Shown here: piece after piece, positions 31,813 to 52,178 of the stretch
Layout of the letters: the number at the start of each line of letters is the position of its first letter
Numbering within the stretch: position 1 is the stretch's first letter
DNA from: Thiogranum sp.
GTDB lineage: Bacteria > Pseudomonadota > Gammaproteobacteria > DSM-19610
Reading direction: 5' to 3'
Length of the DNA: 64,000 bases
Assembly: GCA_030148805.1 (NCBI GenBank)
Contig: JASBSS010000013.1
Coordinates: 62,001-126,000 of the forward strand
The notes under the pieces: model-generated
The model's database searches: none
What the model saw: only the letters and a program-made list of their open reading frames with translations
Told to the model about the DNA's origin: nothing
Translations under genes and position numbers: made by a program

Positions 31813-32055
31813 TCAGTGCTCCAGCCGCTCGAGCTGCGTGGCGAGGTCGTGGACCGTGCGGATATCGGGCAGAATGTTGAGCGGGATGGAAATGTCGAAG
31901 TGATCCTCGAGCTGCTCGATCAGTTCCATGACCTGCAACGAGGTCAGGCCCAGCTGGGTGACCAGTTCGCTGTCTTTGTTGAGCATCACCCCCGGTTTGG
32001 TGAAGGGCTTGAGGATCTTGAAGATGCGTTCGAGGAATTCGTCGTAGTCAGGCAT
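31813..32055 (-). CDS. Acyl carrier protein dedicated to the serine palmitoyltransferase
   Basis: An 80-residue acidic four-helix carrier protein. The phosphopantetheine serine is S39 in LGLTSLQVMEL; the usual DSL has become TSL, a form seen in specialised carriers. Four bases separate it from the serine palmitoyltransferase gene, so it most likely presents the acyl chain to that enzyme. The fatty acyl-AMP ligase at 49.4 kb is a plausible loader. It is divergent from the first ELM1-family gene. Confidence 0.85.
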   Translation of the reverse strand: MPDYDEFLERIFKILKPFTKPGVMLNKDSELVTQLGLTSLQVMELIEQLEDHFDISIPLNILPDIRTVHDLATQLERLEH

Positions 32056-33311: not shown

Positions 33312-35033
33312 TCAATCGCGCGCCATGGCCTGCACGCGGCCGTCTTCCAGGCGATAGACGACATCGGCTGCATCGACCAGGGCGCTCTGGTGCGAAATCG
33401 CCAGAATGGTGAGCCGGCCGCGCAGGTGCCGCATGGTCTCGCCGATGGCCGCTTCGCTCGCCGGATCGAGCGCGCTGGTGGCCTCGTCGAGGATCAGCAA
33501 TGCCGGCTTGTGCACCAGGGCGCGCGCGATGACGATGCGCTGGCGTTGACCCCCGGAGAGCATGGCGCCGCGCTCGCCCACGTCGGTATGGATACCCTGA
33601 GCCATGCGCGCGACAAAGTCCCAGGCATCGGCCGACTTGAGCGCCTCGATGGCGTCGCGCTCCGACAGTTCGGGATCGCCGAGGGTGATGTTCTCCAGCA
33701 CCGAGGCGTGGAGCAACAAAGTCTCCTGCGGGACATAACCGATCATGCGGCGCCAGGCTTTGACATCGAGCTCGGCCAGCGAGGTGCCGTCGAGGCACAC
33801 CTGCCCCGAGCGCGGTCGCAGCAGACCGGTCACCAGATCGATGACGGTGGTCTTGCCGGAACCGGAAGCGCCCACCAGGGTGGTGATTTTGCCCGCCGGG
33901 ATGCAGAGGTCGACCGCGCGCAATACCGGGCGTTGGGCGACGTATTCGAAACTGACCTGATCGAGACGGATCTCCCGCTCCAGGCTGGGCTGCGCGCCGG
34001 TTCCCAAGTGCTCCTCGGCGGCCTGCGCCTCCTGGATGGCGGCCTTGATGGACCAGAAGGCGCTCTCGCCGAGCACCATCTTCTGATACTGTTTCTGCAC
34101 CTTGCCGACCTGGCTGAGCATTTTGCCCAGCACGAAGACCAGGACCATCACCGGTGCCAGCGGCATGTCGAATTTCACCAGCGCCACGAACATGCCCAGG
34201 GCGATGACAATGGCGAACATCTCCTCCTGTGCCGAGTTCAAGGCCGCGGCGCTGAAGACCTGCTTGCGCAGGGCGCGATTGAGCCGGGTGGTGGTCTCGC
34301 CGAGGACGGTATCGGCGAGGTGTTCGCGCGCCATGGCCTTGAGCGGTTTGACCGATTGCAGGGTGTCGGTGAGACGCGACAGCAACATGGTCAGCAACTT
34401 GGTTTGCCGCTTACCGGCTTTACGCGCCATGCGCACCAGGAAATGCGAGATGGCGACCACCAGCGCGCCCGCGCCGATGCTCACCAGAGTGGCCTTCCAG
34501 GAGACCGCGAGCGCCACGGCGCCGTAGATGATCGCCTGGATCAGCAGGGTGATGACGGTGGCCCCGTTGATGAAGGAGTCCGAGGAGCGTTGTGCCTCGG
34601 TGGCCAGACTGTTGCTCAGGCGGCCTACCGGTTGATGGACGAAGAACTCCCATTTGCTGCGCAGCACCGCCCGGATCATCTCCAGGCGCAGGTCGGTGGC
34701 CACGCGCGCGGCGGTGTAGCCGACCTGCCGCTGCGCCAGCAGCAACAGCAGGCTCTTGACGGTCGCCCCGGCGACGATGACCACCAGCAGCACGCCGATG
34801 CTCGGCGTGATGCCCATCTGATGCAAGGTTTCGGTCACGATGCGTTCGAACTCGTTCTGCGAATCGGCGGCGCCGTCCCCGGCGTGGCTGCTGTCGCTGC
34901 GGATGGCGATGTTCATCAGTGGCAGCAGCGCCGAGAGGCCGACACCTTCGGCGACGCCCGCCAACAGCAGGGCGACGAGCATGATGACGGTCTGCCCGGG
35001 ATAGGCCCGGAAGAAACTCAGCATTAATTGCAT
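33312..35033 (-). CDS. ABC exporter, MsbA/lipid-flippase-like half transporter
   Basis: A 573-residue fusion of six transmembrane helices (about 1-310) and an ATPase domain (about 335-573). The ATPase has GASGSGKTT (Walker A, about 390), the signature LSGGQRQRI, LLILDEATSALD (Walker B) and a switch histidine in AISHQSAL. Half transporters of this kind work as homodimers that flip lipids or lipid-linked sugars. Its position between ELM1-family genes and lptFG suggests a lipid product of this locus as cargo (inference). MsbA, PglK-type oligosaccharide flippases and drug exporters cannot be told apart by eye. It starts MQLMLSFFRAY. Confidence 0.8.
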   Translation of the reverse strand: MQLMLSFFRAYPGQTVIMLVALLLAGVAEGVGLSALLPLMNIAIRSDSSHAGDGAADSQNEFERIVTETLHQMGITPSIGVLLVVIVAGATVKSLLLLLAQRQVGYTAARVATDLRLEMIRAVLRSKWEFFVHQPVGRLSNSLATEAQRSSDSFINGATVITLLIQAIIYGAVALAVSWKATLVSIGAGALVVAISHFLVRMARKAGKRQTKLLTMLLSRLTDTLQSVKPLKAMAREHLADTVLGETTTRLNRALRKQVFSAAALNSAQEEMFAIVIALGMFVALVKFDMPLAPVMVLVFVLGKMLSQVGKVQKQYQKMVLGESAFWSIKAAIQEAQAAEEHLGTGAQPSLEREIRLDQVSFEYVAQRPVLRAVDLCIPAGKITTLVGASGSGKTTVIDLVTGLLRPRSGQVCLDGTSLAELDVKAWRRMIGYVPQETLLLHASVLENITLGDPELSERDAIEALKSADAWDFVARMAQGIHTDVGERGAMLSGGQRQRIVIARALVHKPALLILDEATSALDPASEAAIGETMRHLRGRLTILAISHQSALVDAADVVYRLEDGRVQAMARD

Positions 35034-35110: not shown

Positions 35111-36184
35111 TCAACGCATGCGCGTGATCAGCCCCGCGGTGGTCAGCAGCACCAGCACAACGGGCGCGAAGGCCGCGATGGAGGGCGGCAGCTGGATGAC
35201 CGCCGCCCCCGTCTGCACCAGTTGCGCGAACAGATAGAAAATGATGCCGACCGCCGCGCCCATGGCGAGATTGCGTCCGAAGGCATTGCTGCGCATGGTG
35301 CCGACGCTGGCACCGATCGGGACCGCCAGCAGCACCATGGCGCCCGTGGTCAGCGGCAGGGCGACGCGCTGCCAGAACAACTGCTCCACCCGGGCCGAGA
35401 ACTGGTGGGTGGTTTTCAGATAGCCGGAGTACTCGTACAGATCGCTGGGGGTCATGCCGGCCGCCGAGAGCGGCAAGGCGGGCAGCTCCTCGCGCGACCA
35501 GAACGGGCCCATCTCCAGATGCCGTTTGCGTTCGGTCTCCAGGGTGCCCTGATGCATGGTCTTCTGCACCACGTCCAACAGGTCCCAGCGGCGGCCACCG
35601 GAAACCTGGGCACGATCGGCATGGATGAAATTCACCAGGCGCCCCTCGGTATCGAACTCGTACAGGAAAATCTCCCGCGGCACCTGGCTGTTGCGAAGCG
35701 CGCGCACATTGAAGAAACGACGTTCGCTGTTGGACCACAGGCCTTTACCGGTGAGCAGGTTGGGTTGCCCGCTGCGAATCAGGGTCTTCTGGATCTCGGC
35801 CTTTTGGTAAAGGGGGGCGGCGAGGTATTCGCTGGCGCCGTACAACATCAGCACCAGTACCGCCGCCGGCAAGGCCACGGCGCGGAAAAAACGCAGCAGG
35901 GAAACGCCGGCGGCGCGCAGCGCGATAATCTCGCTGTGTTTGTTCAGCCCCGCGAGGGCGAGAATCGAACCCATCAGAATGATCACCGGCGCCAGGTCCA
36001 GGGAGCGTTGCGGCAAGGTGTAGAGTATAAAGCGCAGCGCGTCCACGACCGTGTAGCTTGCGGTCACGCGCTCGACCTCGTCGACGAAGGCCAGCAGGCC
36101 GAAGATCGACGACATGATCAGCCACACCAGCAGCCATCCGAGCAACAGCTTGCGGCCGATGTAGCGGTCCAGGGTCGCCAGCAT
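35111..36184 (-). CDS. lptG: LPS export ABC transporter permease LptG
   Basis: A 357-residue inner-membrane protein with three N-terminal and three C-terminal helices around a periplasmic beta-jellyroll. It starts MLATLDRYIGRKLLLGWLL, the classic LptG opening. With LptF and two LptB ATPases it extracts LPS from the inner membrane. The lptF stop and lptG start are one base apart (TGAGATG). No lptB or pepA is adjacent. Whether this is the sole pair or an additional copy devoted to another lipid cannot be decided from this window. Confidence 0.88.
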   Translation of the reverse strand: MLATLDRYIGRKLLLGWLLVWLIMSSIFGLLAFVDEVERVTASYTVVDALRFILYTLPQRSLDLAPVIILMGSILALAGLNKHSEIIALRAAGVSLLRFFRAVALPAAVLVLMLYGASEYLAAPLYQKAEIQKTLIRSGQPNLLTGKGLWSNSERRFFNVRALRNSQVPREIFLYEFDTEGRLVNFIHADRAQVSGGRRWDLLDVVQKTMHQGTLETERKRHLEMGPFWSREELPALPLSAAGMTPSDLYEYSGYLKTTHQFSARVEQLFWQRVALPLTTGAMVLLAVPIGASVGTMRSNAFGRNLAMGAAVGIIFYLFAQLVQTGAAVIQLPPSIAAFAPVVLVLLTTAGLITRMR

Positions 36185-36185
36185 C

Positions 36186-37307
36186 TCAGCGCCTCCGCCA
36201 GCGCCATCGGGGGGCGAGCAACAGCGCGGCGAACAACAGCAGCGGCAGCGCGTATACCCACCAGATACCGGGAACGGGCGCAATGGCGCCGTCGGCCACC
36301 CAGTTGCGCGCCACGCTGGTGAGAATGAACAGCCCGATATAGACGCCGATGGCGAGGATGAAACTGCTGTGGCGGCTCTGGCGTGGCGCGCTGCGGCTGA
36401 GCGGGACGGCCAACAGCGCCAGCGCCAGGGTGGCCAGCGGGGTGGACAGTCGCCACTGGTATTCGGCGATATCCTTGGTGGCTGTCGAGTGCGACAGATT
36501 CTCCGTCGATTCGGCCTTGCGCCGATAGCTGTTGTCCTGTTCGATACCCGGAATGGGGATGATCAGGCGCTTGAACTTCAAGATGGTATCCCGCGTCCCG
36601 TCGGTATCCAGCAGATAACTGTAGCCGTTGTGGAATTCAAAAGTGCGCTCGGCACCCGCCGGTGCCGGCGGCATGACCGCTTCGTGCGCGTAGATGACCT
36701 GGACCTTGTCAGCCGAGCCCGCGTCGGTTTGCAGAAATATTTCCCGCAGAATGCCCTTTTGCTTGTCCACGCTATGGGCAAACAGCACATACTTCGCATC
36801 CTGCATTTCAAGAAAATGGCCGGGTTCGATTTTGCGGATGTCGAATTCGGTGCGCGCGTCGGCCTCGATCTGATAGCTCTGGCGATACGCCCAGGGTCGG
36901 GCGAACAGGGAAATGGCGCCCACCAGCAAGGCGATGAGCACGGTCAACAGCAACACGCTGCGGATCACCCGCCCCTCGCTGAAGCCCGCGACGTTCATGG
37001 CGGTCATCTCCGAGTCGCGATACATGCGGCTGAGGGCGGCGATGATCGACAGATACAGCGCGGTGGGCAGGAGCACTTCCATGGCGATCAGGCTGTTCAA
37101 GCCGATCAGGCGGGCGACGATCGACAGCGGGATTTCGCCCTGGGCGGCTTCCGAGAGCTTGATCGCCAGGCTGTAGCCGGTGAACACAACGACCAGCAGC
37201 GTGATGCCCAGAATCATCGGTTTGATGATTTCTGCGGTGATGTGTCGACTGAGTACCACGATGATGTTGTTGCGCAGCCCGCCGGCGTCGGAAAAGACGG
37301 CGCTCAT
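36186..37307 (-). CDS. lptF: LPS export ABC transporter permease LptF
   Basis: A 373-residue partner of LptG with the same layout of helices and a periplasmic jellyroll. Helix 1 is IIKPMILGITLLVVVFTGYS and the fold continues with LPTALYLSIIAALSRMYRDSEMTAMNVAG, the coupling-helix region that contacts LptB. ATG 37307 is preferred over a TTG three codons earlier. It is first in a two-gene lptF-lptG unit lying between the second ELM1-family gene and the ABC exporter. Confidence 0.88.
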   Translation of the reverse strand: MSAVFSDAGGLRNNIIVVLSRHITAEIIKPMILGITLLVVVFTGYSLAIKLSEAAQGEIPLSIVARLIGLNSLIAMEVLLPTALYLSIIAALSRMYRDSEMTAMNVAGFSEGRVIRSVLLLTVLIALLVGAISLFARPWAYRQSYQIEADARTEFDIRKIEPGHFLEMQDAKYVLFAHSVDKQKGILREIFLQTDAGSADKVQVIYAHEAVMPPAPAGAERTFEFHNGYSYLLDTDGTRDTILKFKRLIIPIPGIEQDNSYRRKAESTENLSHSTATKDIAEYQWRLSTPLATLALALLAVPLSRSAPRQSRHSSFILAIGVYIGLFILTSVARNWVADGAIAPVPGIWWVYALPLLLFAALLLAPRWRWRRR

Positions 37308-37396
37308 TGTAACCAAATTCTCCGGTGCCTGCCGCTCGCTGCAGCGGCGCGCGGATTCCGCTACACTGCCGGCTTTGCCGTCGATGACGACCGACC

Positions 37397-39484: not shown

Positions 39485-39546
39485 TCCGCATCCCGGCGTT
39501 CTTCCTGCCGTTGACGGGGCCTTCGATCCATTACCAGGTTCGGTTT

Positions 39547-40833
39547 ATGCTGTTGACCAGATCCGACTACGCGCAGCCCCTTGGGCTGGCCGGCCTCTAC
39601 CTGTTTGCCTTCAGCGGCGCGCTCAACCAGGGCGGGGTCTACGCTGGGATGGCCTTGATGTTGCTCGGAGCGCTCCTGCGTTGGGACGACGTCTGGACGG
39701 ACGTGCGGCGCCAGCCCGCCCTGGTGCTCTCGCTGGGGCTGACGCTTTACATCCTGGCCCAGGGCGTCATGACCTATCTGAACGTCGACACGCCCGGCGG
39801 CAAGCTTGCGCGCCACGTCTGGGATCTGGTCGCAATCGCCGGTCTGTTTTCGTTGCTGATCGCCTGGTGGCTGGCGGGGGACCCGGCCCGCATCGCCCGG
39901 GTGCTGCAACTGGCCCTGCTGGGGGTTTTTCTCGGGGTCATCAAAGGCGTGGACTGGACGCATTTCTCTGCTTATATCACCCAGCGCCCCCTGTTCGGCA
40001 TGGGCAACGGCGCGGGGTTGTACGCGTTGATCGTGATCACGGGCTTGCTGACGCTGCGTTCGACGAGGTTGTTTGAAGACAGCTGGTTTCGTCGCCGGTT
40101 GCCGGCGTTGACGCGCAAACTGATCGTGTTGCTGTTGCTGTTGTTCTTTGCCGCGGTGGTGTTGCTAAGCCAGACGCGCGCGGTCTGGCTGGCCGCCCTG
40201 CTGGTGACGCCGGTGGTGGTGGGGCTGCTGCTGCGCTCTGCCGCCAAGGAACCGCCCAGGAGAGGGATCGCCGGCTTCGAGGCTTCGATGCTGGGGCTCA
40301 TCGTCCTCGGCCTCATCCTCGGCTTTGGCACCATCGAAAAACGCCTGGACGCCGATCAGAGTGCGTTGAGTCAGATTTTATCTGGCGAATCAGCGCTTTT
40401 GCCCGCCTCCAGCGTCGGGCAGCGCATCTATCTGTGGCGTGACGCGATGCAGCGCATCGAGGCCAAGCCGTTGCTGGGATGGGGCGCGGGCAGCGCTCCG
40501 GCGCTCATCCGGGCCGCCGAGATTCCCGGCGGGCTACGCCACTATCATAATCTTTATCTCCAGTTGGCCGTGGAGCTTGGCGTGGTCGGGCTGGGGGCGT
40601 TCCTGCTGTGGTTCGGGTTGCTCGCGCGCACCGCGCTGGCCGATTGCGCCGGCGAACCGTTGGGTCCTGGTTACCGCCGTTTCTTATTGGCGGCCCTGGC
40701 GATTTTTCTGGTGGTCTCTTTTTTCCAGATACGCCACGACGACGAGCGCGGGCAGTCCCTGTTGCTCCTCCTGGGGGCGCTGGCCCTGACCTGCCGCCTG
40801 CGGTTTGCGACGCGCAAAGCGCGGAAGGACTAG
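39547..40833 (+). CDS. O-antigen ligase / Wzy-like polymerase family protein
   Basis: A 428-residue integral membrane protein with about ten to twelve hydrophobic helices. The periplasmic loop contains LRHYHNLYLQLAVELGVVGL, the conserved histidine segment of WaaL ligases and related polymerases. It also has SQTRAVWLAALL, with the arginine often needed for undecaprenyl-PP substrates. WaaL attaches polymer to lipid A core; here an acceptor other than lipid A is possible given the surrounding genes. ATG 39547 (MLLTRSDYAQPLG) is chosen over an earlier frame start. Confidence 0.78.
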   Translation: MLLTRSDYAQPLGLAGLYLFAFSGALNQGGVYAGMALMLLGALLRWDDVWTDVRRQPALVLSLGLTLYILAQGVMTYLNVDTPGGKLARHVWDLVAIAGLFSLLIAWWLAGDPARIARVLQLALLGVFLGVIKGVDWTHFSAYITQRPLFGMGNGAGLYALIVITGLLTLRSTRLFEDSWFRRRLPALTRKLIVLLLLLFFAAVVLLSQTRAVWLAALLVTPVVVGLLLRSAAKEPPRRGIAGFEASMLGLIVLGLILGFGTIEKRLDADQSALSQILSGESALLPASSVGQRIYLWRDAMQRIEAKPLLGWGAGSAPALIRAAEIPGGLRHYHNLYLQLAVELGVVGLGAFLLWFGLLARTALADCAGEPLGPGYRRFLLAALAIFLVVSFFQIRHDDERGQSLLLLLGALALTCRLRFATRKARKD

Positions 40834-40867
40834 TACGCGGGGTTGGCGGCTATGGATGTTTCGGGCG

Positions 40868-41779
40868 TCAATCCGGGGGAGAGCGGTAGTTGAATTGCGG
40901 GTCGAGCCGTTCCTCGACCAGGCGGTCGATGGTCTCGATCTGCCGCTCATCGAAGTAATCCCGATAGCCGCCCACTTTCGCTCGCCTTGCCTTGAACGAA
41001 TCCGGATTGTTGACGTCCGCCGCCGCCAGGCGACTGTCGCTGTTCTCGCCGTTCATTTCGCGTTGTTTCATTTTCTCGAACTCGGTGTAGGCGACCACTT
41101 CACCGACCTCCTCGGCGGCCGGCTTCTCGCCGAGCGTGCCTAGCAGCCGCTCCAGATACGTTGCCGTGTCCGCGCGCAGGTCTTCGTAGCGATACAAGGC
41201 CAGATGAGGGATCCGCGCTGCCTGTTGCTGCCATCGGTTCATGAACGCGATGATGGCGGGCAGGCCGGAATCCGGGTGCAGGACGAACTCATACATCGAA
41301 ATGTCCGCGCCGTCGGGCGGCATGTTGTCCAGCATCTTGTTGTGGGGTTTGACCCTGTGCAGCCAGTGGAAATACAGGGAAACGGCCACGTCGCGCGGGT
41401 CCCTGACCAGCAAAATCACCGGCTTGTCGTGAAACAAGGCGGGTTCAGGACCTTCGAGCCCGGTGTAGTGACGCAGATACCGGTCGTGGGTGAACAGGAT
41501 CACCGGCACTTGCGCGCGCAGCCGGTGGAAATTGTCGTAGTTCAACAGGCGGTTTTCGGGCAGGCCATAGCGGCGCTGATAGAAACGCGACAGCATCACG
41601 CGCAGCCAGGTACGGCCGCACTTTTCGTAGGAGACCACCACCGCGTCGGCTTTGCCGAGTCGATAGCATTCCTCGCGGCCACGCAGCCAGCGCTCGATGC
41701 CGATCTTCGACTCCTTGGGCAAGGGGGTGAAGTGCAGCGCTTTTTTGCGGATAAATTTTGGCAGGGCTACTGGCAGCAC
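40868..41779 (-). CDS. PAPS-dependent sulfotransferase
   Basis: A protein of about 303 residues from a probable GTG start at 41779; the frame stays open to 42016, so the start is uncertain. The PAPS 5'-phosphosulfate loop is in VVSYEKCGRTWLRVML and the 3'-phosphate motif in LLVRDPRDVAVSLYFHW, the two signatures of the Sulfotransfer_1 family. YRYEDLRAD is also typical. It would move sulfate from PAPS to a hydroxyl of a sugar or lipid. No PAPS-making genes are next to it. Its place beside glycosyltransferase and methyltransferase genes suggests sulfation of the lipid or glycan made here. Confidence 0.8.
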   Translation of the reverse strand: MLPVALPKFIRKKALHFTPLPKESKIGIERWLRGREECYRLGKADAVVVSYEKCGRTWLRVMLSRFYQRRYGLPENRLLNYDNFHRLRAQVPVILFTHDRYLRHYTGLEGPEPALFHDKPVILLVRDPRDVAVSLYFHWLHRVKPHNKMLDNMPPDGADISMYEFVLHPDSGLPAIIAFMNRWQQQAARIPHLALYRYEDLRADTATYLERLLGTLGEKPAAEEVGEVVAYTEFEKMKQREMNGENSDSRLAAADVNNPDSFKARRAKVGGYRDYFDERQIETIDRLVEERLDPQFNYRSPPD

Positions 41780-42114
41780 AGGGTCATCACCAAGTTTCGA
41801 GTTGTTTTCCCGTCGGGTGGTTCTTCCCTCGTCCCGCCATCCGTCCGCAGGGGGTCGAACTCCGGAAGGCGGATTATACAGAATCGCCAGGGCCGTCGGC
41901 ATTGATCTGGGTCTATTTGAGTTCGCGCGCACGCCGGTGGCATCCCGTCCCCCGGGGCTTGCGCTGGATTCTCGATGAACAGGTGGGGTATGCTTGGCGG
42001 GGTTAGCGCGTGACACTGAAAGCGGCGATCGGGGTTCGGTAGCCCACGCCCGTAGCCCAATCCAAGCTTCCCTGGCTGACCCACGTCCCGCCCGCGACGC
42101 GATAAGAGGATCGC
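41780..42114. other. Divergent region between the sulfotransferase and methyltransferase genes
   Basis: If the sulfotransferase starts at 41779, these 335 bases hold its leader and promoter. A TATAAT hexamer on the minus strand at 41873-41878, without a good -35, would give a leader of about 87 bases. The right end has AGAGGA before the methyltransferase ATG. Nothing else recognised. Confidence 0.35.
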
Positions 42115-42786
42115 ATGTACAATCGAAGCAATCCCAGTCCCGATTTTCTCGACATGGTGCAGATGTACGAAACCCTGCACGTGGAAGGCGAGCACTCCGC
42201 GGGCAAGTCGGGCGAAGAGACCTTTCCCGGCAAAATGCTGATCAAGCATGCTCCCGGCATCAAGGACATGATCGATCGCATCGGCGCCGATTCCATTCTC
42301 GATTATGGCGCCGGGAAGGGGCAGGGCTATCTGCAGAAGAATCTCCAGCTCACGCGGGAGCTCAAGGTCGAGAGCATTCAGGGATACTGGGGGGTGCGCG
42401 AGATCCGTTGTTATGACCCGGGTTACGCGCCGTTCAGCGAGCTGCCAAGTGGTCAGTTCGACGGCGTGATCTGTACCGATGTACTCGAGCACATCACCGA
42501 GCCGGACGTTCCCTGGGTGATAGAGGAGATGTTTGCTTACGCGCGCCGGTTCGTCTATGCCAACGTGGCCTGTTTCCCCGCCGTCAAGCTGCTCCCCAAC
42601 GGGCAAAATGCGCATTGCACCCTGCATCCGCCGGAATGGTGGGCTGGGGTGGTCCACGCCGTGGCGATGCGTTATCCCCGGATTTCCTATCGCCTGGTGA
42701 TGACCACCAAAACCGGTCGGCGGAAGAAATTCGGTTTTGCCAAGAATCGCAAGTCGGTTCATCACACCGTCGAGCGTCTGGTTTGA
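42115..42786 (+). CDS. Class I SAM-dependent methyltransferase-like protein
   Basis: A 223-residue protein with the Rossmann methyltransferase core: SILDYGAGKGQG as motif I (about residues 60-71), FDGVICTDVLEHI as the motif after strand 4, and a mixed C-terminal half with FGFAKNRKS. AGAGGA precedes the ATG. The acceptor is unknown; sugar O-methylation or lipid head-group modification would fit the neighbourhood. It converges on the third ELM1-family gene. Confidence 0.7.
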   Translation: MYNRSNPSPDFLDMVQMYETLHVEGEHSAGKSGEETFPGKMLIKHAPGIKDMIDRIGADSILDYGAGKGQGYLQKNLQLTRELKVESIQGYWGVREIRCYDPGYAPFSELPSGQFDGVICTDVLEHITEPDVPWVIEEMFAYARRFVYANVACFPAVKLLPNGQNAHCTLHPPEWWAGVVHAVAMRYPRISYRLVMTTKTGRRKKFGFAKNRKSVHHTVERLV

Positions 42787-42804: not shown

Positions 42805-43944
42805 TTATCCGTCCCCCGAATCGGGTCGACGCGACAGCAGGGCGATGATCCGCTCACGGGCGCAAAGCAAGTCGTCGGCCAAGCCCTGCGGTGGAGGCGG
42901 GGCGAAGGTTTCACCGCAGCGTACCGCATAGCCGCCGGCGATCAGTGATTCGTGGATCCGCGCCAGGTCGCGGGAAAACCCGACCACGCCGCTGCGGTAC
43001 AGCCAGCGTCCCAGGCAGCGATACAGCCGGTTGCCCAAGGGGCTATCGGCCGGGGCGTGCAGACGCCGGGTGATCGCCCCCCAGAGGCGGCTGTGCCAGG
43101 GTATGGGTAACGGGAAAATCGCCAACGGCTTGCCGCAGTCGGCGACCTCCAGCATCATCGACACGCTGTCGCCGGTGACGACAAAGTAATCGGCCAGGCG
43201 CAGAAACGCCTGATAGGGATTGTCCCCGGCCCCTGCCTGCCACTGAAACAGGCGCGCGCCGGCCGGTAGTTGGTCGCGCAGCGACGCGACCGTCGCCGGC
43301 GGGGTTCGCCGGCTGGTGGAGAAATACAGCGTGCCCCCGAGCTGCGCCTGAAGCCGGTTGCAACAGTGCAGCAATTCCCGCGTGGCGGCGGCGTCGAAGC
43401 GAAACGGCCGCGTGGGTCCGCCGACCAGCACCACGATCAACGGCCTCGGCAGCGCCTGCAGTCGCCCGCGCCAATGCTCGGCGGCACGCTCGATGGCTTC
43501 CTGGTCGGCGCGCATCAAAGGTAGCGACAATCGCAGCACGTTGGCGAGCTCGGGCAGGCTGTACTGGGGTAGGGTGATCACCAGATCGAAGCGCTCCAGC
43601 CAGCGCCGGGCGCGGCCGATCAATACCAGCCGCGTGCTCGGCGACTGCTGTTTGACCCATAGCGCGGCCATGCTGTGGCGTCGGCCTATGGTAATCACCA
43701 GATCGGGCCAGGGAGCGGCCAGGCGGTCGGAGCGTGCCGGGTCGAGATGCTCGAGGGTGGGGCGAAAGCGCGGTTTGCCGATTTCGTAGGCGGGCAAAGG
43801 ACGCAGACGTTTGATCTGGTAGGGCAGGCCGAGCGAGTCGGCGATGCGGATCGCCTGGGCATTGTCGCCCAGTTTGTCGCCGATGATCAGCCAGATCAGC
43901 GGTGCTTGGTCGGTCGGTAGCGGTGGTTGATTGGTCGCGTCCAT
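42805..43944 (-). CDS. ELM1-family protein 3 (putative GT-B glycosyltransferase-like)
   Basis: A 379-residue third paralogue. Landmarks: IWLIIGDKLGDNAQAIRIADSLG, PDLVITIGRRHSMAALWVK, DLVITLPQYSLPELANVL, VVLVGGPTRPFRFD and VVTGDSVSMMLEVADCGKPLAI. It differs more from the other two than they do from each other, especially after residue 280. It is third in a minus-strand unit behind the lipid kinase and Tam41-like genes, 19 bases downstream of the latter, so it probably acts on the product of those enzymes. Confidence 0.72.
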   Translation of the reverse strand: MDATNQPPLPTDQAPLIWLIIGDKLGDNAQAIRIADSLGLPYQIKRLRPLPAYEIGKPRFRPTLEHLDPARSDRLAAPWPDLVITIGRRHSMAALWVKQQSPSTRLVLIGRARRWLERFDLVITLPQYSLPELANVLRLSLPLMRADQEAIERAAEHWRGRLQALPRPLIVVLVGGPTRPFRFDAAATRELLHCCNRLQAQLGGTLYFSTSRRTPPATVASLRDQLPAGARLFQWQAGAGDNPYQAFLRLADYFVVTGDSVSMMLEVADCGKPLAIFPLPIPWHSRLWGAITRRLHAPADSPLGNRLYRCLGRWLYRSGVVGFSRDLARIHESLIAGGYAVRCGETFAPPPPQGLADDLLCARERIIALLSRRPDSGDG

Positions 43945-43963: not shown

Positions 43964-44917
43964 TCAGCGAAAGATCCCCCGCCGATACAGATCCCAGAAA
44001 AGCCCCCAGATGAAAATCAATGGATAGCGCCGGACCCGCGCCGGCACCTCGATCCGCTGGCCCGAGTGGCGCTCAAGTTTCCACGCGGCATAATCCAGCG
44101 CACCGTCGAAGGTGAACAGTGCTTTCAGCAGGCGTGCCACCGACAGCAGTTTCCCTTGTGCGGTGCGCAATGCCCAGGCGGCGCGACAGCGCCGCCGGCG
44201 GTTTGCCGATACCTGCAAGCGGTAGTAACCCTGCGTGTCGACTTCCAGCGGCAGGCTGAGTGCGGGCTGTACCAGTCGGGTCACGGCCAGATACCATTCG
44301 CGTCCGCTGCGGGCGAGTTCGCTCGCCCGCGCGTCGGACTCCGGACGCAGCTCGGCGCCATAACTCAGGCGCAGCGCCTCGCGCCAGAGTGACTCGATAT
44401 CCCCCTGAACCTTCACGCACGGCAGCGTGCGTTCCAGAAACGTGTGGATGGCCAGTGCCAGGCTGTCGCGGGTCCTCGCGTGCGTCGCGTCATCGCGTGC
44501 CCAGGCGATCGCGGTGGGTTGGCTGAAGCGTCCCCAGAAATAGGAATGGTACCAGCGCCGGGAACAGGCTTTGCGAAGTTGAGCGGCGCTTATTACTGCG
44601 TACTTGCAGCGCAGGGTGCGCCCATCGATGGGGACCTCGGTATAAAACACATTCGGTGGCAGCAGACGATTCCACAGCGCGCGAGATCGCCCCTGATTGA
44701 CACAACGATAATCGTCGACCACCAGATAAAGATCCACCAGGCCGTCAAAGGGGTCGCCGCCGCGCAGGCAGGAGCCGTAGAACAGCATCGCCTGGACACA
44801 TCCGCCGTGGCGCGCGCGCAAGGCGTCGATCAGAAACCGGAGCGCGGGATGCCGTGGCGCGGGTGTCAGCGTCGCCAGAGCGCCGGCCAATGGGTTGGGT
44901 TTCGCTGTCGTTTCCAC
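43964..44917 (-). CDS. Tam41-like nucleotidyltransferase (CpgA-like)
   Basis: A 317-residue protein. LFYGSCLRGGDPFDGLVDLYLV resembles the nucleotidyltransferase signature (GS, then D-x-D-like acidic pair) in the spacing seen in Tam41-type CDP-diacylglycerol synthases, and VVDDY follows as in that family. A later block WREALRLSYGAELRPE may contact lipid or phosphate. From memory, the Caulobacter ceramide-phosphoglycerate genes cpgA-cpgB also pair a nucleotidyltransferase with a lipid kinase. The gene sits five bases after the lipid-kinase stop. The reaction is inferred: activation of a phospholipid, phosphoceramide or polyol by CTP. Confidence 0.6.
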   Translation of the reverse strand: METTAKPNPLAGALATLTPAPRHPALRFLIDALRARHGGCVQAMLFYGSCLRGGDPFDGLVDLYLVVDDYRCVNQGRSRALWNRLLPPNVFYTEVPIDGRTLRCKYAVISAAQLRKACSRRWYHSYFWGRFSQPTAIAWARDDATHARTRDSLALAIHTFLERTLPCVKVQGDIESLWREALRLSYGAELRPESDARASELARSGREWYLAVTRLVQPALSLPLEVDTQGYYRLQVSANRRRRCRAAWALRTAQGKLLSVARLLKALFTFDGALDYAAWKLERHSGQRIEVPARVRRYPLIFIWGLFWDLYRRGIFR

Positions 44918-44922
44918 GTTCC

Positions 44923-46005
44923 TTAGCGAGTGATGCGGATGAACTCGATCGTTCCGCCGTTGCCGATAATCAGCGGTCCCTGCTCACGGCTGGCCTGGTG
45001 CATTTCGCCGTCAAGGGTAAACATGGCGTCCAGCCAAAGGCGGATCTCCCCGGCATTATGACTGAAATAGCCGTTCTGCGCGCTGACGTGGCGATTGGGC
45101 CTGCCGCGCAGCAGCCCGGGGAAGGCACGCAGGACGCGCCGGGCCGGGTGCTCCATCCAGGTGCAGTGGACCGGGTGGGGTTCGCTGCCCCAAAAGGGGC
45201 GCAAGCCGAGAAACAACCGTTGCAGGGAGGTGATCAGCAACTGTATCACCGGCCGCGCCGGTCCCAGGTCGCGCCCATCGAGCGCAATTCCGGTCGCCGT
45301 CGGCGCGGCAAAACGGGTGTCCTGGCGGATAATGCCCCACAAGGTGCGCAACACGACCAGTCCGGGCGCCAGTTCGTCGCGTATTCCCAGGGTATGGATG
45401 TTCTGATGGCAGTACTCGATCCCGTTGACGATGGTTCCGGTGCCAAAGAACATGCCGTATCTGGGCGGTTCGCCCACCGCGCCGGTCACCCGAAGTATCG
45501 CCCGTTGCACGCGTTCGCAACCGGTGTCGTCGCCGTCTGCCCAGCGACACAGGCGGCGTACGCAATCGATCAGCGGCCCGCGCAGGCCGGCGTCGGCGGC
45601 GTTCATGTTCGTGGTGCCGCCCGGTAACAATACGATTGCTGGGGTTTGGGGGAAGGGCAGCTGGGAGAGCAGGGCGCTCAGCACGTGCGCCCCGGTACCG
45701 TCGCCGCCGTTGATCGCCAGCGTATTCACCCCAAGCCGGGCGAAAGTCTCCAGGATGTCGGCGATGGCGTCGCTGTTGGCGGTGACGCGATGGTGGATGC
45801 GCGGATGATTTGCGACAATGGTTTCCACTTCGTGCAGGCGGGTGCGATTGCGGCGGCTGTTGGGGTTGCTGATCAGGCCCACGATGCGGGGGCCGGGATC
45901 GGGTTGTGAAACTTTTGGATTCAAGGCGTAAGCGACTGGTGTATGGCGAGTGCCGGCATCGTAATGCAAGCGGCCGGTTTCAACAAATAATGGCGGGACA
46001 GACAT
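44923..46005 (-). CDS. Diacylglycerol-kinase-family lipid kinase (ceramide-kinase candidate)
   Basis: A 360-residue DAGK-catalytic-domain kinase. VGLISNPNSRRNR starts the domain near 42 and GGDGT at 100-104 is the ATP-binding motif; LLPGGTTNMNA follows. Such kinases phosphorylate diacylglycerol, sphingosine or ceramide. Because it is in the same locus as serine palmitoyltransferase and next to a CpgA-like gene, a ceramide kinase like Caulobacter CpgB is the best guess. It lacks a clear ribosome site, and its ATG shares the four bases CATG with the divergent metallophosphoesterase start; a TTG 27 codons in is an alternative start. Confidence 0.75.
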   Translation of the reverse strand: MSVPPLFVETGRLHYDAGTRHTPVAYALNPKVSQPDPGPRIVGLISNPNSRRNRTRLHEVETIVANHPRIHHRVTANSDAIADILETFARLGVNTLAINGGDGTGAHVLSALLSQLPFPQTPAIVLLPGGTTNMNAADAGLRGPLIDCVRRLCRWADGDDTGCERVQRAILRVTGAVGEPPRYGMFFGTGTIVNGIEYCHQNIHTLGIRDELAPGLVVLRTLWGIIRQDTRFAAPTATGIALDGRDLGPARPVIQLLITSLQRLFLGLRPFWGSEPHPVHCTWMEHPARRVLRAFPGLLRGRPNRHVSAQNGYFSHNAGEIRLWLDAMFTLDGEMHQASREQGPLIIGNGGTIEFIRITR

Positions 46006-46966
46006 GAATAGGTGGGAAAAGTCGGCGGCCGAGGGACTGTGCGTCGCGCATTTGTCCGATCCTCACCTGACCTCGCTGCACCAGGCCCGCTGGTGGCAGC
46101 TGCTAAACAAGCGCTGGTTGGGGTATCGCTCCTGGTGTCGCAAGCGCCGCGATCTGCATCGGGCCGAGATCCTCGACGCGCTGTTGCAGGATCTGCGCAA
46201 CACCTGCCCCGAGCACGTGGTGATCACCGGTGATCTGACCCACATCGCGCTTCCCGACGAGTTCCGTCAGGCGCGCCAGTGGTTGGACCGCCTCGGTAGT
46301 GGCGATACCGTCACGGTGATACCCGGCAATCATGATGCCTATGTGCGCACGGCGTGGCGCAAGAGTTGGGCGCACTGGCTGCCCTATATGCAATCCGACC
46401 CCGCCTGGCGTTCGCCGGGCCGCGGCCGCAAGCTGTTCCCCAGCTTGCGGATACGCAACGGGGTGGCGCTGATTGGCCTGTCCAGCGCGGTGCCGACCGC
46501 GCCCCTGGTGGCCAATGGTCGCCTGGGAGCGCGTCAGCGCCGGCGGCTGGCCGAGATTCTCAGACAAACCGGCGAGCGCGGGCTGTTTCGCCTGGTGTTT
46601 CTGCACCATCCCCCCCGTGCGCAGGACGAGAACTGGCGCCGGCGCCTGACCGACGGGCGCGCCTTGTGCGACATACTCTGTCGCGAGGGCGCCGAGCTGG
46701 TGCTGCACGGCCACGGGCACATCAACGCCCGTACCGCCATCGAGTGCGCCGCGGGCGAGATTCCGGTCTACGGCATTCCTTCGGCTTCGGAGATCGGGCA
46801 TAAACCGGGTCGTAGCGCCCAGTACTATATGTACCGTCTGCTGCGCGCCGGCGGCCATTGGCAGGTGCGGGTCGAGGTGCGCGGTTGGCAGGCCGACTCC
46901 GGTGGGTTCGAGCCGGTCGAGGAGCATCAGTTTCGGGTGCCGGCGATGCCCTCCACCAGTTGCTGA
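46004..46966 (+). CDS. Calcineurin-like metallophosphoesterase
   Basis: A 320-residue cytoplasmic dinuclear-metal phosphoesterase. Motifs in order: HLSDPHL, VITGDLTH, IPGNHDAY, FLHHPPR and HGHGHIN. It resembles the Icc/cAMP-phosphodiesterase branch, whose members also include UDP-diacylglucosamine pyrophosphatase (LpxH)-like and nucleotide-lipid hydrolases. Beside a lipid kinase and a nucleotidyltransferase it may cleave a nucleotide-activated or phosphorylated lipid intermediate. It shares its start position with the lipid kinase on the other strand and overlaps the next convergent gene by 40 bases. Confidence 0.82.
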   Translation: MNRWEKSAAEGLCVAHLSDPHLTSLHQARWWQLLNKRWLGYRSWCRKRRDLHRAEILDALLQDLRNTCPEHVVITGDLTHIALPDEFRQARQWLDRLGSGDTVTVIPGNHDAYVRTAWRKSWAHWLPYMQSDPAWRSPGRGRKLFPSLRIRNGVALIGLSSAVPTAPLVANGRLGARQRRRLAEILRQTGERGLFRLVFLHHPPRAQDENWRRRLTDGRALCDILCREGAELVLHGHGHINARTAIECAAGEIPVYGIPSASEIGHKPGRSAQYYMYRLLRAGGHWQVRVEVRGWQADSGGFEPVEEHQFRVPAMPSTSC

Positions 46967-47724
46967 TCGGCCATCGAATCGACGTCGATCGCCGCCTCGG
47001 CGTAGGGCAGATGGATCGGCGCGATGGACACCTCCAGGCGGCGCGAGAGCTGGCCGAGGGCCTGAGCCAGGGTCATCCAGCCCAGCAAATAGCGCAACAC
47101 CGACCACCAGCCGAGTTGGCGGATGACGCGCAGCGGATTTTTGCGCTGTTGTTCGACGTGTCGCCAGGCGGCCGCCACCCGGTGCGAAGCCGGGGTCATG
47201 AAACTGAACAGATTGCAACCGCAGAAACCGCCGTCGCGGAAGCGCGTGACCGTTTTCTTCGCCGCCGGAAAACGTGAACGGATGCCGGCATAGTCGGTCA
47301 GCCCCACGCCGACATCGGCGCCGCTTTCGAGCGAGCGCTGCAGGAACTCGTCGACGATCTCCGCGCGCAGCAACGGGTGATCGGCGGTGGTGACCAGCAC
47401 CGCACTGCCGGCGGGCAGGGACTGCAGCGCGCTATAGGCGCTGGCGCTGGGGCTTGCGCACGGCTCGACCCAGCGAATGACGCCCCGGGCCAAGGCGTCG
47501 GCCAGAAACTCGCTGCCTTCCAGTTGTGCCTCGCGCCGACCCGAGATGACAATGGCCTCGACGTGGCGACTGGCGCTCAAGGCCTTGACCACCAGGTCCA
47601 GCATCGGCGTGCCATCGATTCTCACCATCGCTTTGCAACAGACACCGGCCGCGGCGGCCAGCGGATCGCGCCCGTGACGATCGGCAGCCAGGACGACGGC
47701 GGTGAACGCTGCGGTTTCCTTCAT
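46927..47724 (-). CDS. MobA-like nucleotidyltransferase with altered signature
   Basis: A 265-residue protein with the GT-A/NTP-transferase fold. The N-terminal loop reads VVLAADRHGRDPL and then KAMVRIDGTPML, where MobA- or IspD-type enzymes have LAGGxSxRMG and a lysine; the glycine pair is missing, so the nucleotide loop is unusual. DHPLLR in the segment VTTADHPLL fits the metal-binding acidic position. It is downstream of the ceramide-synthase-like gene by 12 bases in the same direction, and its 3' end overlaps the phosphoesterase gene by 40 bases. It may make a nucleotide-activated polyol or phosphate head group. Confidence 0.65.
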   Translation of the reverse strand: MKETAAFTAVVLAADRHGRDPLAAAAGVCCKAMVRIDGTPMLDLVVKALSASRHVEAIVISGRREAQLEGSEFLADALARGVIRWVEPCASPSASAYSALQSLPAGSAVLVTTADHPLLRAEIVDEFLQRSLESGADVGVGLTDYAGIRSRFPAAKKTVTRFRDGGFCGCNLFSFMTPASHRVAAAWRHVEQQRKNPLRVIRQLGWWSVLRYLLGWMTLAQALGQLSRRLEVSIAPIHLPYAEAAIDVDSMADQQLVEGIAGTRN

Positions 47725-47736: not shown

Positions 47737-48876
47737 TTAAAGGCTTTTTTCATACAGGCGGTAGGTCTTGTAGGCGACACCGCCAAGCGACTCGATGATA
47801 TTGCGCATACCGCTATTGTGTTCCAGGATCCAGGACATTTCCATTTCCCGGATACCGCGGGCCAACACCGGTCGGCGCAGGGTGTCGGTGATCATGAACG
47901 ACAGGGCCGGCCCGAACGGCGTATGGTGGTACTGTTTGCGTACCCCCATCAGGGGAATGCGGGCGGAGGTCGGATAACGGACCTTGAGCCGCCACAGCAG
48001 CTTCAGCCAGCCCAGCGGCAACAGGCGACCGTTGAGATCGGCGATCGCTTCATTGATGTTCGGCAGGCAGACGATCATGGCGGCGGGAGAGCCGTCCACT
48101 TCGGCGATCTGGACGAAATCATCATCGATCAAATGGGTCATTGCCTTGCCGACTTCCGCGAATTCCGCCGCGGTGATCGGTACCATGCCCCAGTTTTCCG
48201 ACCAGGCGTCGTTGAATATATCGCGCATCAGTTCCAGTTCCGCGGCCAGCTGCTTGCGGTTGAGCGTCCGGATGGTCACCCGGTCAGCCACCCGAGCGAC
48301 CAGGCGTTGCATCACTTTGGGCACGACAAAATCGGGATGCTGATGATAGGCAAGCAGATCAACCGCTTTTCGGTAGCCGGCCGCTTCGACGCTCGGCCCA
48401 TAATAAGGGCGGCCATGCGCCATCATGATGCGTGGCGGGGTATCGAAACCCTCCACCAGTAGGCCGCACTCCTCGTTGATGGACAGATTGAACGGGCCGG
48501 TGACGCGCACCATGCCTTCGTTTCTCAACCATTGTTCCGCCTTTGCGAACAATGCGTTGATCGCGCCCTGATCCTGTTCGGCCTCGAAGCAGCCGAAATG
48601 GCCGGTATGATCGGCAAATTTCGCCTGGTGCAGTGCGTCGATCTGGGCGCTGATCCGTCCAACCACCCGATCACCGCGATAGGCCAGCCAGGCGCGCCAA
48701 CGGGCGTGCTCGAAAAAAGGGTTTTTCTTGCTAAACCTCTCTTTTTGCTCGAAATTAAGAGGGCATACCCAGTTGGGGTCGGAACGGTAGAGGCGTTGCG
48801 GAAATTGGATGAAGCGATCCAGCAACTTGCGCTCGGTGACTTCGCGAAGGGTCAGCTTCGCGGCGTGCTCGGACAT
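47737..48876 (-). CDS. GNAT-fold N-acyltransferase, bacterial ceramide synthase candidate
   Basis: A 379-residue protein starting MSEHAAKLTL. It belongs to a large GNAT-like family of about 380 residues with FNLSINEECGLLVEG, IMMAHGRPYYGPSVEAAGYRKAVDLLAY and a second GNAT half from FNDAWSENWG to EMSWILEHN. As I recall it, bacterial ceramide synthase (bCerS) of Caulobacter is of this kind and acylates the amine of 3-oxosphinganine. The SPT, ACP, acyl ligase and CerR-like genes in the same locus support that role. It is first gene of a minus-strand pair with the MobA-like gene and has a predicted promoter overlapping a CRP-type site. Confidence 0.65.
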   Translation of the reverse strand: MSEHAAKLTLREVTERKLLDRFIQFPQRLYRSDPNWVCPLNFEQKERFSKKNPFFEHARWRAWLAYRGDRVVGRISAQIDALHQAKFADHTGHFGCFEAEQDQGAINALFAKAEQWLRNEGMVRVTGPFNLSINEECGLLVEGFDTPPRIMMAHGRPYYGPSVEAAGYRKAVDLLAYHQHPDFVVPKVMQRLVARVADRVTIRTLNRKQLAAELELMRDIFNDAWSENWGMVPITAAEFAEVGKAMTHLIDDDFVQIAEVDGSPAAMIVCLPNINEAIADLNGRLLPLGWLKLLWRLKVRYPTSARIPLMGVRKQYHHTPFGPALSFMITDTLRRPVLARGIREMEMSWILEHNSGMRNIIESLGGVAYKTYRLYEKSL

Positions 48877-49082
48877 TGGGCCTGATATCGGTGGTGAAAG
48901 CGAGCCATGATACCCGCAGCGATTCGTCGCCGCCACAAGCCCGGCTTCGCGGTCCCGGGGCGCCAGAAACCCGGCGGATGTGGTCTGTATCTTGCTTGCC
49001 TGCTGCTGGCAGCGGGCGGTTGTGCTCAGGTTTTGCCGCTGGCTGCCGACGTTTGAATTTGTCGGCAATTGTTGTCGTAAAA

Positions 49083-49376: not shown

Positions 49377-51146
49377 TTGGGCGCTGAATCGACACCAACA
49401 GGACACGACTTACCGTTTCGTGCCGCGGATTTTGCCACTTTGGCTGAAGCCTTGGACTATGCCGCCCAAGGTGAAACCGGTGCCAATTTCTATACCGGCC
49501 GCGGCAAGCTGTACGCATCGCTTCCTTACGCGCAGCTGCGCCAGGATGCCCGCGTGCTGGCGCGCAAGTTGCTTGGGATGGGTTTGGAAAAAGGCGATCG
49601 GGTCGCGCTGGTCGCCGAGACCAACCCGGATTTCCTGCGCTTCTTTTTCGCTTGCCAGTATTCCGGGCTGGTCCCGGTTTCGCTGCCCGCCTCGGTCAAC
49701 CTGGGCGGTCACACGGTCTATGTCACCCAGTTGCGCGGCTTGCTGGAAAGCAGTCAGGCGTCGGTGGCGATGGCGCCCAGCGGTTACGCTTCTTTTCTCG
49801 CCGAAGCCGGTGAGGGGCTGGACCTGAAGCTGATCGGCGATCCGGCGGCGTTCGATGCCCTGCCGGAGGCGGAGGTCGAGTTCGCGCCGGTCAACCCCGA
49901 GGACACGGCCTACATCCAGTACACCTCCGGCAGTACCAAATTTCCCCGCGGCGTGGTGATCGAGCAGCGCGCGGTCATGAGCAATCTGGGCGGCATCATC
50001 CGCCACGGCGTGAAAATCGGTCCGCAGGACCGTTGCTTCTCCTGGCTGCCGTTCTACCATGACATGGGTCTGGTCGGGTTGGTCCTGGTACCGGTCGCGG
50101 CGCAGATTTCCGTCGATTATCTCGACACCCGCGAGTTCGCCATGCGCCCGCGCCAGTGGTTGAACCTGATGACCGAGACCAAGGCGACCATCTCCTTCAG
50201 CCCGCCGTTCGGTTATGAGTTGTGCACCCGCCGGCTGCGCCCGGGCGAGGGTGGCAAATACGATCTGAGCAACTGGCGGGTCGCCGGCGTGGGCGCGGAA
50301 ATGATCCGCTCGGAGACGCTGACGCGTTTTGCCAATGCGCTGAAGGCCTCGGGTTTCAACGAAAAGGCGTTTCTCGCCTGCTATGGCATGGCCGAGTGTT
50401 CGCTGGCGATCAGTTTCGCGCCGCTGTTCGAGGGCCATTCGACCGATTGTGTCGACGGGGATCATCACTCCGATCACCAGGAGGCCCTGCCGATCCATTT
50501 GTCGGAGAATCCCGGGCGGGCGCGGTGTTTCGTCGAGTGCGGCATCCCGTTGCCGGAATACGAGGTCGAGATTCGCGACGACGAGGGACGCATCCTGCCG
50601 GACCGACGCAGTGGCGGCATCTATGTGCGCGGCGACAGTGTGATGTCGGGTTATTTCAACGCCCCGGAGGAAACCGCCGCCACCTTGTCGCAAGACGGCT
50701 GGCTCAACACCGGCGATATCGGTTACCGCGTCGACGGCAGCCTGATCATCACCGGCCGTAAGAAAGACCTGATCATCATCAACGGCCGCAACATCTGGCC
50801 GCAGGATCTGGAGTACCTGGCCGAGCATCAGCCGGAGGTGCGTATCGGTGACGCGCTGGCGTTCTCCGTTCCGGGTCCGGACGACGAGGAGGTCTGCGTT
50901 CTGGTGGTACAGTGCCGGGAATCGGATCCCAACAAGCGTGCCGCTCTGATCGACCGGCTCAACCGCCTGGTGCACCTGGAGCTGGGCATCGATGTCTTTG
51001 TGGAACTGGTGCCGCTGCACACGCTGCCACGCACCTCTTCTGGCAAGCTGTCGCGCTCCAAGGCCCGCCAGAACTTCATCGAGTCGCGCGCGCTGGAGCG
51101 GTTGCTCGACGAGCGCCAGGACGAGCTCAAACTCAAGCAGGGTTAG
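49377..51146 (+). CDS. Fatty acyl-AMP ligase
   Basis: A 589-residue adenylating enzyme. IQYTSGSTKFPRGVV is the AMP-binding P-loop, SWLPFYHDMGLVG is typical of the fatty acyl-AMP ligase branch, and GRKKDLIIINGRNIWPQDLE is the hinge and C-terminal core. Such ligases activate fatty acids and load them on a carrier protein without using CoA. In the Caulobacter sphingolipid cluster an acyl-ACP synthetase lies beside cerR, and the same pairing occurs here. The ACP at 31.8 kb is a likely recipient. Start is probably TTG at 49377 with AGGGA upstream. Confidence 0.88.
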   Translation: MGAESTPTGHDLPFRAADFATLAEALDYAAQGETGANFYTGRGKLYASLPYAQLRQDARVLARKLLGMGLEKGDRVALVAETNPDFLRFFFACQYSGLVPVSLPASVNLGGHTVYVTQLRGLLESSQASVAMAPSGYASFLAEAGEGLDLKLIGDPAAFDALPEAEVEFAPVNPEDTAYIQYTSGSTKFPRGVVIEQRAVMSNLGGIIRHGVKIGPQDRCFSWLPFYHDMGLVGLVLVPVAAQISVDYLDTREFAMRPRQWLNLMTETKATISFSPPFGYELCTRRLRPGEGGKYDLSNWRVAGVGAEMIRSETLTRFANALKASGFNEKAFLACYGMAECSLAISFAPLFEGHSTDCVDGDHHSDHQEALPIHLSENPGRARCFVECGIPLPEYEVEIRDDEGRILPDRRSGGIYVRGDSVMSGYFNAPEETAATLSQDGWLNTGDIGYRVDGSLIITGRKKDLIIINGRNIWPQDLEYLAEHQPEVRIGDALAFSVPGPDDEEVCVLVVQCRESDPNKRAALIDRLNRLVHLELGIDVFVELVPLHTLPRTSSGKLSRSKARQNFIESRALERLLDERQDELKLKQG

Positions 51147-51168: not shown

Positions 51169-51196
51169 AATAACCGGCGCCAGCCGGTTATTTTTT
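51169..51196 (+). terminator. Rho-independent terminator after the acyl-AMP ligase gene
   Basis: A perfect 10-bp stem (51169-51178 with 51183-51192) with a four-base loop, continuing into a run of six T (51191-51196). It ends about 25 bases before the probable start of the next gene on the same strand. Confidence 0.88.
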
Positions 51197-51221
51197 GCCC
51201 GCCGCAAGTGGCCGTACCGTT

Positions 51222-52178
51222 GTGAGTGGGTCGCAGGCCGCGCGGCGCGTGGCCGTCACCGGCGCCACCGGCTTTATCGGCGCCGCCATCTGCCGGCATC
51301 TCCACGCCCTGGGACAGCAGGTGCGCGTTCTGGCGCGGTCCCCTGAGCGGGCCCGGGCGCTGACACCGTGGGTCACGGAGGTCGTTGCCGGCGATCTGCA
51401 CGACGCCGAGGCGCTACGGCGTCTGGTCGCCGGTGTCGATGCCGTGGTGCATTGTGCCGGCGTGGTCCGCGGCGCCGCACAAGCGGATTTCGACCGCGTC
51501 AACGTCCAGGGGCTCGAGAACCTGCTCTCGGCGTTGGCGACCGGTGCCGCGCGCCTGCTGAGTTTCTCCTCCTTGGCGGCACGCGAACCGCAGTTGTCCT
51601 TCTATGCCCGCAGCAAACAGCGGGGCGAGGCACTGCTGCGCGCGCACGCGCGCGCGGTTCCCTGGACGATCTTGCGTCCTCCAGCGGTCTATGGTCCGGG
51701 CGACACCGAGCTGTTGCCTTTGTTTCGACTGATGGCGAAGGGCATCGCGCCGGTGCCGGGCGATCCCGAGGCCCGTTTTTCGATGCTCTACGTCGAGGAC
51801 CTGGCGGAGCTGGTCGGCGCCTGGTTGCGACGACCGCAACCGCCCGGCGGCGTGTACGCCCCCGAGGATGGTACCCCCGGCGGCTATGACTGGCACGAAG
51901 TCGCTGCCATCGTCGGGCGCTTGTGCGACCGGCGGGTGCGGTTGCTACGGGTGCCGACGGGTCTGCTCGCCGCGCCGGCCTGGGTCAACCGCACGCTGGC
52001 GCGGCGTTTCGGTTACGCGCCGATGCTGACCCCGGAGAAACTCAGGGAACTGCGCCACCCGGACTGGGTGTGCGATAGCGGGCCGCTCACCCAACTGCTC
52101 GGCTGGCAGCCGCGGGTCAGGCTCGAGGAGGGGCTGCGGCGCACGCCCGGCTGGTGCGACCGGCTTGCCTCGGGTTAA
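51222..52178 (+). CDS. NAD-dependent epimerase/dehydratase family reductase (CerR-like)
   Basis: A protein of about 318 residues of the extended short-chain dehydrogenase family. VAVTGATGFIGAA is the NAD(P) loop, FSSLAAREP follows strand 5, and YARSKQRGE is the catalytic Tyr-x-x-x-Lys. ILRPPAVYGPGD is typical of the family. Its place after the acyl ligase matches cerR, proposed to reduce the 3-oxo group of oxidised ceramide in Caulobacter. The frame could begin at TTG 51195, but that lies in the terminator U tract; GTG 51222 is more likely. Sugar epimerase is the alternative. Confidence 0.7.
   Translation: MSGSQAARRVAVTGATGFIGAAICRHLHALGQQVRVLARSPERARALTPWVTEVVAGDLHDAEALRRLVAGVDAVVHCAGVVRGAAQADFDRVNVQGLENLLSALATGAARLLSFSSLAAREPQLSFYARSKQRGEALLRAHARAVPWTILRPPAVYGPGDTELLPLFRLMAKGIAPVPGDPEARFSMLYVEDLAELVGAWLRRPQPPGGVYAPEDGTPGGYDWHEVAAIVGRLCDRRVRLLRVPTGLLAAPAWVNRTLARRFGYAPMLTPEKLRELRHPDWVCDSGPLTQLLGWQPRVRLEEGLRRTPGWCDRLASG

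Follow-up and report, generated by a model that had tools for sequence, protein, structure and literature searches.

The closest described system is the phosphosphingolipid pathway of Caulobacter. Its ceramide kinase CpgB (CC_1160, CCNA_01218) has been assayed, and the criterion given for a bacterial ceramide kinase is a GGDG motif without the CxxxCxxC of the eukaryotic enzyme (PMC10331486). CpgC (CC_1161, CCNA_01219) contains an InterPro CDP-DAG-synthase domain, and on domain grounds the formation of an NDP-ceramide was previously suggested for it (PMC11324152); its mode of action is given as unknown in PMC12275187 and PMC13228409. CpgA (CC_1159) has a domain by which the CMP of a CDP-alcohol is displaced (PMC11324152, PMC12275187). 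Further gene products are a phosphoesterase (CC_1158), a CofC-like protein (CC_1153) and CpgD (CC_1152) (PMC11324152, PMC12275187). CpgB and CpgC are needed for CPG, CpgA and CpgD only for CPG2, and a CpgA mutant still produces CPG (PMC12275187). CC_1153, CpgA and CpgD are all required for CPG2 (PMC11324152, PMC12275187). No report of a CTP:ceramide-1-phosphate cytidylyltransferase activity, in whatever organism, was among the papers found.

The window, i.e. the whole stretch of 64,000 nucleotides analysed here, belongs to a gammaproteobacterial assembly of 3.8 Mb (G000, 96% complete). Between about 30.6 and 52.2 kb it harbors a full phosphosphingolipid locus, in which SPT, ACP, CerS, CerR, an acyl-AMP ligase and LptF/LptG-type permeases surround a kinase/nucleotidyltransferase pair. 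SPT scores above its curated cut-off, while CerS and CerR were assigned by homology and position, the latter by reference to the Caulobacter-type locus L072:

30612..31808, minus strand: serine palmitoyltransferase, SPT (NF047599, 623.5 bits, cut-off 500)
31813..32055, minus strand: acyl carrier protein, AcpR-like (PP-binding, 1.7e-10; adjoins SPT)
33312..35033, minus strand: MsbA-like ABC exporter, possible sphingolipid flippase (ABC_membrane and ABC_tran)
35111..36283, minus strand: LptG-like permease (TIGR04408, 267 bits, cut-off 240)
36186..37316, minus strand: LptF-like permease (TIGR04407, 312 bits, cut-off 230)
42805..43944, minus strand: ELM1-family protein with GT-B fold, candidate head-group transferase (PF06258, 1.4e-53)
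43964..44917, minus strand: Tam41-fold nucleotidyltransferase, predicted CTP:ceramide-1-phosphate cytidylyltransferase, CpgC (CC_1161) ortholog (structural model, family profile)
44923..46005, minus strand: lipid kinase, predicted ceramide kinase, CpgB (CC_1160) ortholog (DAGK_cat, 1.5e-10; clade support 100/98)
46004..46966, plus strand: calcineurin-like phosphoesterase in the CC_1158 position (PF00149, 4.3e-13; equivalent place in L072)
46927..47724, minus strand: MobA/CofC-like NTP transferase, CC_1153 ortholog (PF12804, 1.4e-15; adjoins cerS in L072 and others)
47737..49068, minus strand: bacterial ceramide synthase, CerS-like, GNAT type (Acetyltransf_1, 8.8e-5; cerS position in L072)
49377..51146, plus strand: fatty acyl-AMP ligase, AasR-like (NF006624, 806 bits, cut-off 600)
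51195..52178, plus strand: NAD-dependent reductase, CerR-like (Epimerase family, 4.6e-29; position in L072)

The initial annotation had described a GGDGT lipid kinase, followed after five bases by a nucleotidyltransferase and then by an ELM1-family gene. The three frames were recovered at exactly these minus-strand coordinates, with 5 bp between the first two genes and 19 bp between the nucleotidyltransferase and the ELM1-family gene. The LptG- and LptF-like permeases (35111-37316, minus strand) also exceed the cut-offs for ordinary LPS export proteins. Located between parts of the sphingolipid locus, at 39511-42786, are O-antigen ligase-like (Wzy_C), sulfotransferase and methyltransferase-like genes, which suggests that LPS or glycolipid decoration genes are interspersed here. 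The gene product of 38473 to about 39411 (minus strand) has no Pfam or NCBIfam match and is perhaps a glycosyltransferase, judged by eye. It is found with 76-82% identity in several relatives, near comparable loci and in two copies in one of them (L020), and is more conserved than most of the surrounding enzymes.

The kinase frame encodes 360 amino acids with the motif NGGDGTGAHVL. Homology starts near 45906 and the ATG overlaps that of the divergent phosphoesterase by two bases (46004-46005); the true start probably lies further downstream. Inspection of the translation revealed the GGDG motif and no CxxxCxxC of the eukaryotic ceramide kinase type. A tree of locus kinases and other DAGK_cat proteins from the same genomes, in which NAD kinases served as outgroup, places the 19 locus kinases, including those of the window and of Caulobacter-type loci, in one clade (100/98, recovered in 100% of bootstrap trees), and the YegS/DgkB-like paralogues fall outside of it. 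Curated YegS/DgkB models were far missed by the window kinase (27.5 bits versus a YegS-family cut-off of 118.65, and 25.7 versus 284). A grouping with YegS/DgkB, named at the outset as the result that would speak against a ceramide kinase, was therefore not seen at the sequence level. Like Caulobacter CpgB, the window kinase is a DAGK_cat protein with GGDG motif, encoded directly upstream of a CpgC-type gene in a ceramide locus; the differences are that the window locus lacks CpgA and CpgD and that the activity, assayed for CpgB, is predicted here. The best assignment from these data is a predicted ceramide kinase orthologous to CpgB.

The arrangement of the pair is not due to chance, since in 29 of 35 loci (window included), which are spread over many families, the kinase gene is found directly upstream of the nucleotidyltransferase gene and in the same orientation. 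At least one of five ceramide genes is located within the stretch read in 30 of the 35 nucleotidyltransferase loci, again counting the window. Among 274 gammaproteobacterial genomes, the nucleotidyltransferase was found in 15, CerS in 20 and both in 14 (Fisher p 5e-18, not corrected for phylogeny). The single genome with the nucleotidyltransferase and without CerS (G005) is 62% complete, and an SPT-like gene adjoins the nucleotidyltransferase there.

A CpgA/CpgB-like pair had been proposed initially. The CpgB half of this proposal is supported by sequence, as described above, while the partner corresponds to CpgC. This assignment is based on L072 (genome G610), in which the genes encode, in this order, acyl-AMP ligase, CerR, ACP, SPT, nucleotidyltransferase, kinase, CpgA, phosphoesterase, LptF, LptG, CerS, NTP transferase and CpgD, which is the order of CC_1165 to CC_1152. 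CpgD of L072 has nine published residues at their published numbers (G12, R16, K26, T88, N90, T93, G111, D112 and W201); these residues and the gene order are the grounds on which genome and locus were classed as Caulobacter-type. The L072 nucleotidyltransferase was found at 1.6e-60 with a profile of gammaproteobacterial members only. By gene order and homology, the window nucleotidyltransferase is thus the CpgC ortholog and the gene pair is CpgB/CpgC; it occupies the place of Caulobacter CpgC beside spt and cpgB, although its identity to the CpgC-type homolog of L072 is only about 35%. CpgA was rejected as an identity, because it is a CDP-alcohol phosphatidyltransferase and the CDP-OH_P_transf domain is absent from the window gene product, which shares the pathway with CpgA but bears no resemblance to it.

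The nucleotidyltransferase is a protein of 317 amino acids (FYGSCLRGGDPFDGLVDLYLVVDDYR). As a single query it matched nothing in Pfam, not even at E 10, and a search of PDB sequences was likewise empty; the L072 homolog had no Pfam match at E 1. PF09139 was matched by seven of 17 homologs (E up to 1; best 4.6e-11), with L023 reaching 43.2 bits against a cut-off of 24. PF09139 also had no match in the window genome or in 14 control genomes, Caulobacter included, which is uninformative because the model misses the Caulobacter-type homolog as well. An AlphaFold2 model built from the 17 homologs (pLDDT 90) gave Tam41, the mitochondrial and bacterial CDP-diacylglycerol synthase (6ig2, 6ig4, 7ecd), as best Foldseek matches (6e-9 to 2e-8). 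The VIA-align Z scores were 18.8 for 7ecd (229 residues, 3.1 A) and 16.1 for 6ig4, compared to 7.8 for the next family, the aminoglycoside nucleotidyltransferases; the match covers the catalytic core and a part beyond it. The family profile found Tam41 in the PDB at 3.9e-7. The likeness to Tam41 noticed in the initial annotation is borne out by both methods. Invariant in 35 homologs are G48, D62, K105, R130, Q133, Y186, E189, R191 and E193, which sit in the Tam41-aligned motifs YGS, IDF, IKY, GRF and LSY..R. The two proteins have the catalytic motifs in common and, for the greater part of the chain, the fold as modelled, whereas identity is only 13-16% and most of the conserved C-terminal helical part of the window protein (residues 238-312, approximately) is not covered by the match. 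The shared fold does not determine the acceptor, which is phosphatidic acid for Tam41 and predicted to be ceramide-1-phosphate for the window enzyme. Judged by the modelled fold and the conserved site, from which acceptor and nucleotide were deduced, the enzyme most likely makes CDP-ceramide from ceramide-1-phosphate and CTP.

Searches with CpgA as profile and CpgD as single protein found neither in the window genome, in G080 (same genus, one complete contig) or in the relatives G205 and G127, while both were found at full strength in G264, G134, G150 and G610. In the window genome, CpgA gave only weak matches to PssA- and PgsA-like proteins. A CpgA hidden elsewhere in this genome was considered and rejected: of the three CDP-alcohol transferases encoded there, one resembles PgsA and adjoins a UvrC-like gene, one resembles PssA and adjoins a Psd-like gene, and the third is small and PgsA-like, so that none is a clear CpgA. 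The locus thus represents a variant, specific to this lineage, that lacks the genes for forming CPG2. Since CpgA and CpgD are absent, the pathway probably ends with CPG itself or with a ceramide phosphate that has another cap, and a product identical to Caulobacter CPG2 is unlikely. The CC_1153-like NTP transferase gene (46927-47724, minus strand) is retained despite this absence, so that its product may act earlier in the pathway. Among alphaproteobacterial sphingolipid loci, L064 encodes two CpgA-like CDP-alcohol transferases (11513-12631 and 16127-17338).

The nucleotidyltransferases of CpgA-less gammaproteobacteria with ELM1 form one clade (99/99). In five of six loci of this clade the ELM1 gene directly follows the nucleotidyltransferase gene, and three to nine ELM1 copies are encoded in clade genomes without CpgA/CpgD versus none to two in others. 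The model of the ELM1 protein (AF2, pLDDT 88) has a GT-B fold, with Z up to 18.6 to UDP-GlcNAc 2-epimerases and 15.7 to MurG. The tie between the absence of CpgA/CpgD and ELM1, as read from the sequences, is only suggestive, because one clade represents one evolutionary event and because several alphaproteobacterial loci without CpgA/CpgD also have no ELM1 in the stretch read. Three ELM1-family genes are located in the window (32076-33284, 37397-38476 and 42805-43944) and nine in the whole genome, which is unusually many; only one of them is part of the kinase operon. A role of ELM1 in a sphingolipid locus was not documented in the literature found. The ELM1-like protein 2903 of Acinetobacter baumannii is needed for LOS core assembly and thought to be a glycosyltransferase (PMC10936431). 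It shares with the window protein the family, a glycosyltransferase-like structure and the context of envelope glycolipids, but acts in LOS core assembly, while the window gene sits in a sphingolipid locus.

Taken together, the pair probably performs the first two head-group steps in the synthesis of a phosphosphingolipid via CDP-ceramide, with CPG alone or another capped ceramide phosphate as end product. By family and locus, SPT, ACP, acyl-AMP ligase, CerR and CerS would form dihydroceramide. The kinase would convert it with ATP to ceramide-1-phosphate, as expected from its orthology with the enzyme assayed in Caulobacter, and the CpgC ortholog would transfer CMP from CTP onto this product, yielding CDP-ceramide. 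CMP would then be exchanged for the head group by a transferase. Where the locus is of the Caulobacter type, the CPG that depends on CpgC is extended to CPG2 with CpgA and CpgD, both of which are gone in the window lineage, where the GT-B-fold ELM1 protein is a candidate transferase. The order envisaged initially, ceramide phosphorylation followed by head-group chemistry, is broadly supported by the presence of a ceramide-kinase-like gene beside that of a Tam41-like enzyme in a sphingolipid locus. Counting against the CDP-ceramide route, CPG is still produced by the Caulobacter CpgA mutant. The retained CC_1153-like gene and the missing Pfam match of the window nucleotidyltransferase itself also count against the pathway.

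As one branch of the above explanation, the pair might stop at CPG, together with the phosphoesterase and the NTP transferase, and ELM1 might serve the sugar chemistry of LPS or capsule encoded nearby. Taken on its own, this branch is less likely than not. It is in line with the requirement of CpgB and CpgC for CPG and of CpgA and CpgD for CPG2 only (PMC12275187), the nearby Wzy_C, sulfotransferase and methyltransferase-like genes, the role of the Acinetobacter ELM1-like protein (PMC10936431) and several alphaproteobacterial loci with neither CpgA nor ELM1 in the stretch read. The 19 bp spacing of ELM1 to the nucleotidyltransferase, its kept place in the clade and its elevated copy number argue against it. 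A lineage-specific route, in which a Tam41-type cytidylyltransferase forms CDP-ceramide and ELM1 replaces CpgA/CpgD to place an undescribed head group on an outer-membrane sphingolipid, is put forward tentatively and considered rather doubtful.

The substrates of the pair can also be read differently. It is unlikely that the substrate of the nucleotidyltransferase is, as for CpgD, a small molecule of the head group (glycerate or phosphoglycerate) instead of a lipid; acceptors in the superfamily are diverse and the structural matches after Tam41 are aminoglycoside nucleotidyltransferases, but the distance between their Z score and that of Tam41, with an alignment extending beyond the catalytic core, speaks for the lipid, and the CofC-like NTP transferase already present in the locus is a better small-molecule candidate. 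Quite unlikely is a glycerolipid pair, in which a diacylglycerol kinase supplies phosphatidic acid and the Tam41-like enzyme converts it to CDP-diacylglycerol. Tam41 is a CDP-DAG synthase according to the PDB entry titles and the kinase has a DAGK_cat domain, yet this kinase clusters with those of sphingolipid loci and misses the YegS-family cut-offs, and the distribution of the nucleotidyltransferase follows that of ceramide synthase genes. Moreover, CdsA is encoded in the window genome, so that a second CDP-DAG synthase is not required.

For the preferred CDP-ceramide pathway, the Tam41 fold and the kept catalytic motifs in the CpgC family make the function of CpgC directly testable, with ceramide-1-phosphate and CTP as substrates and CDP-ceramide as product. 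That CpgA and CpgD are missing together shows that such loci differ in what follows the CpgC step, and it makes ELM1 proteins, which have no defined role in bacteria, candidates for head-group transfer. In Caulobacter, phosphosphingolipids aid survival without LPS and are a target of polymyxins; the spread and the variants of these lipids therefore bear on outer-membrane biology.
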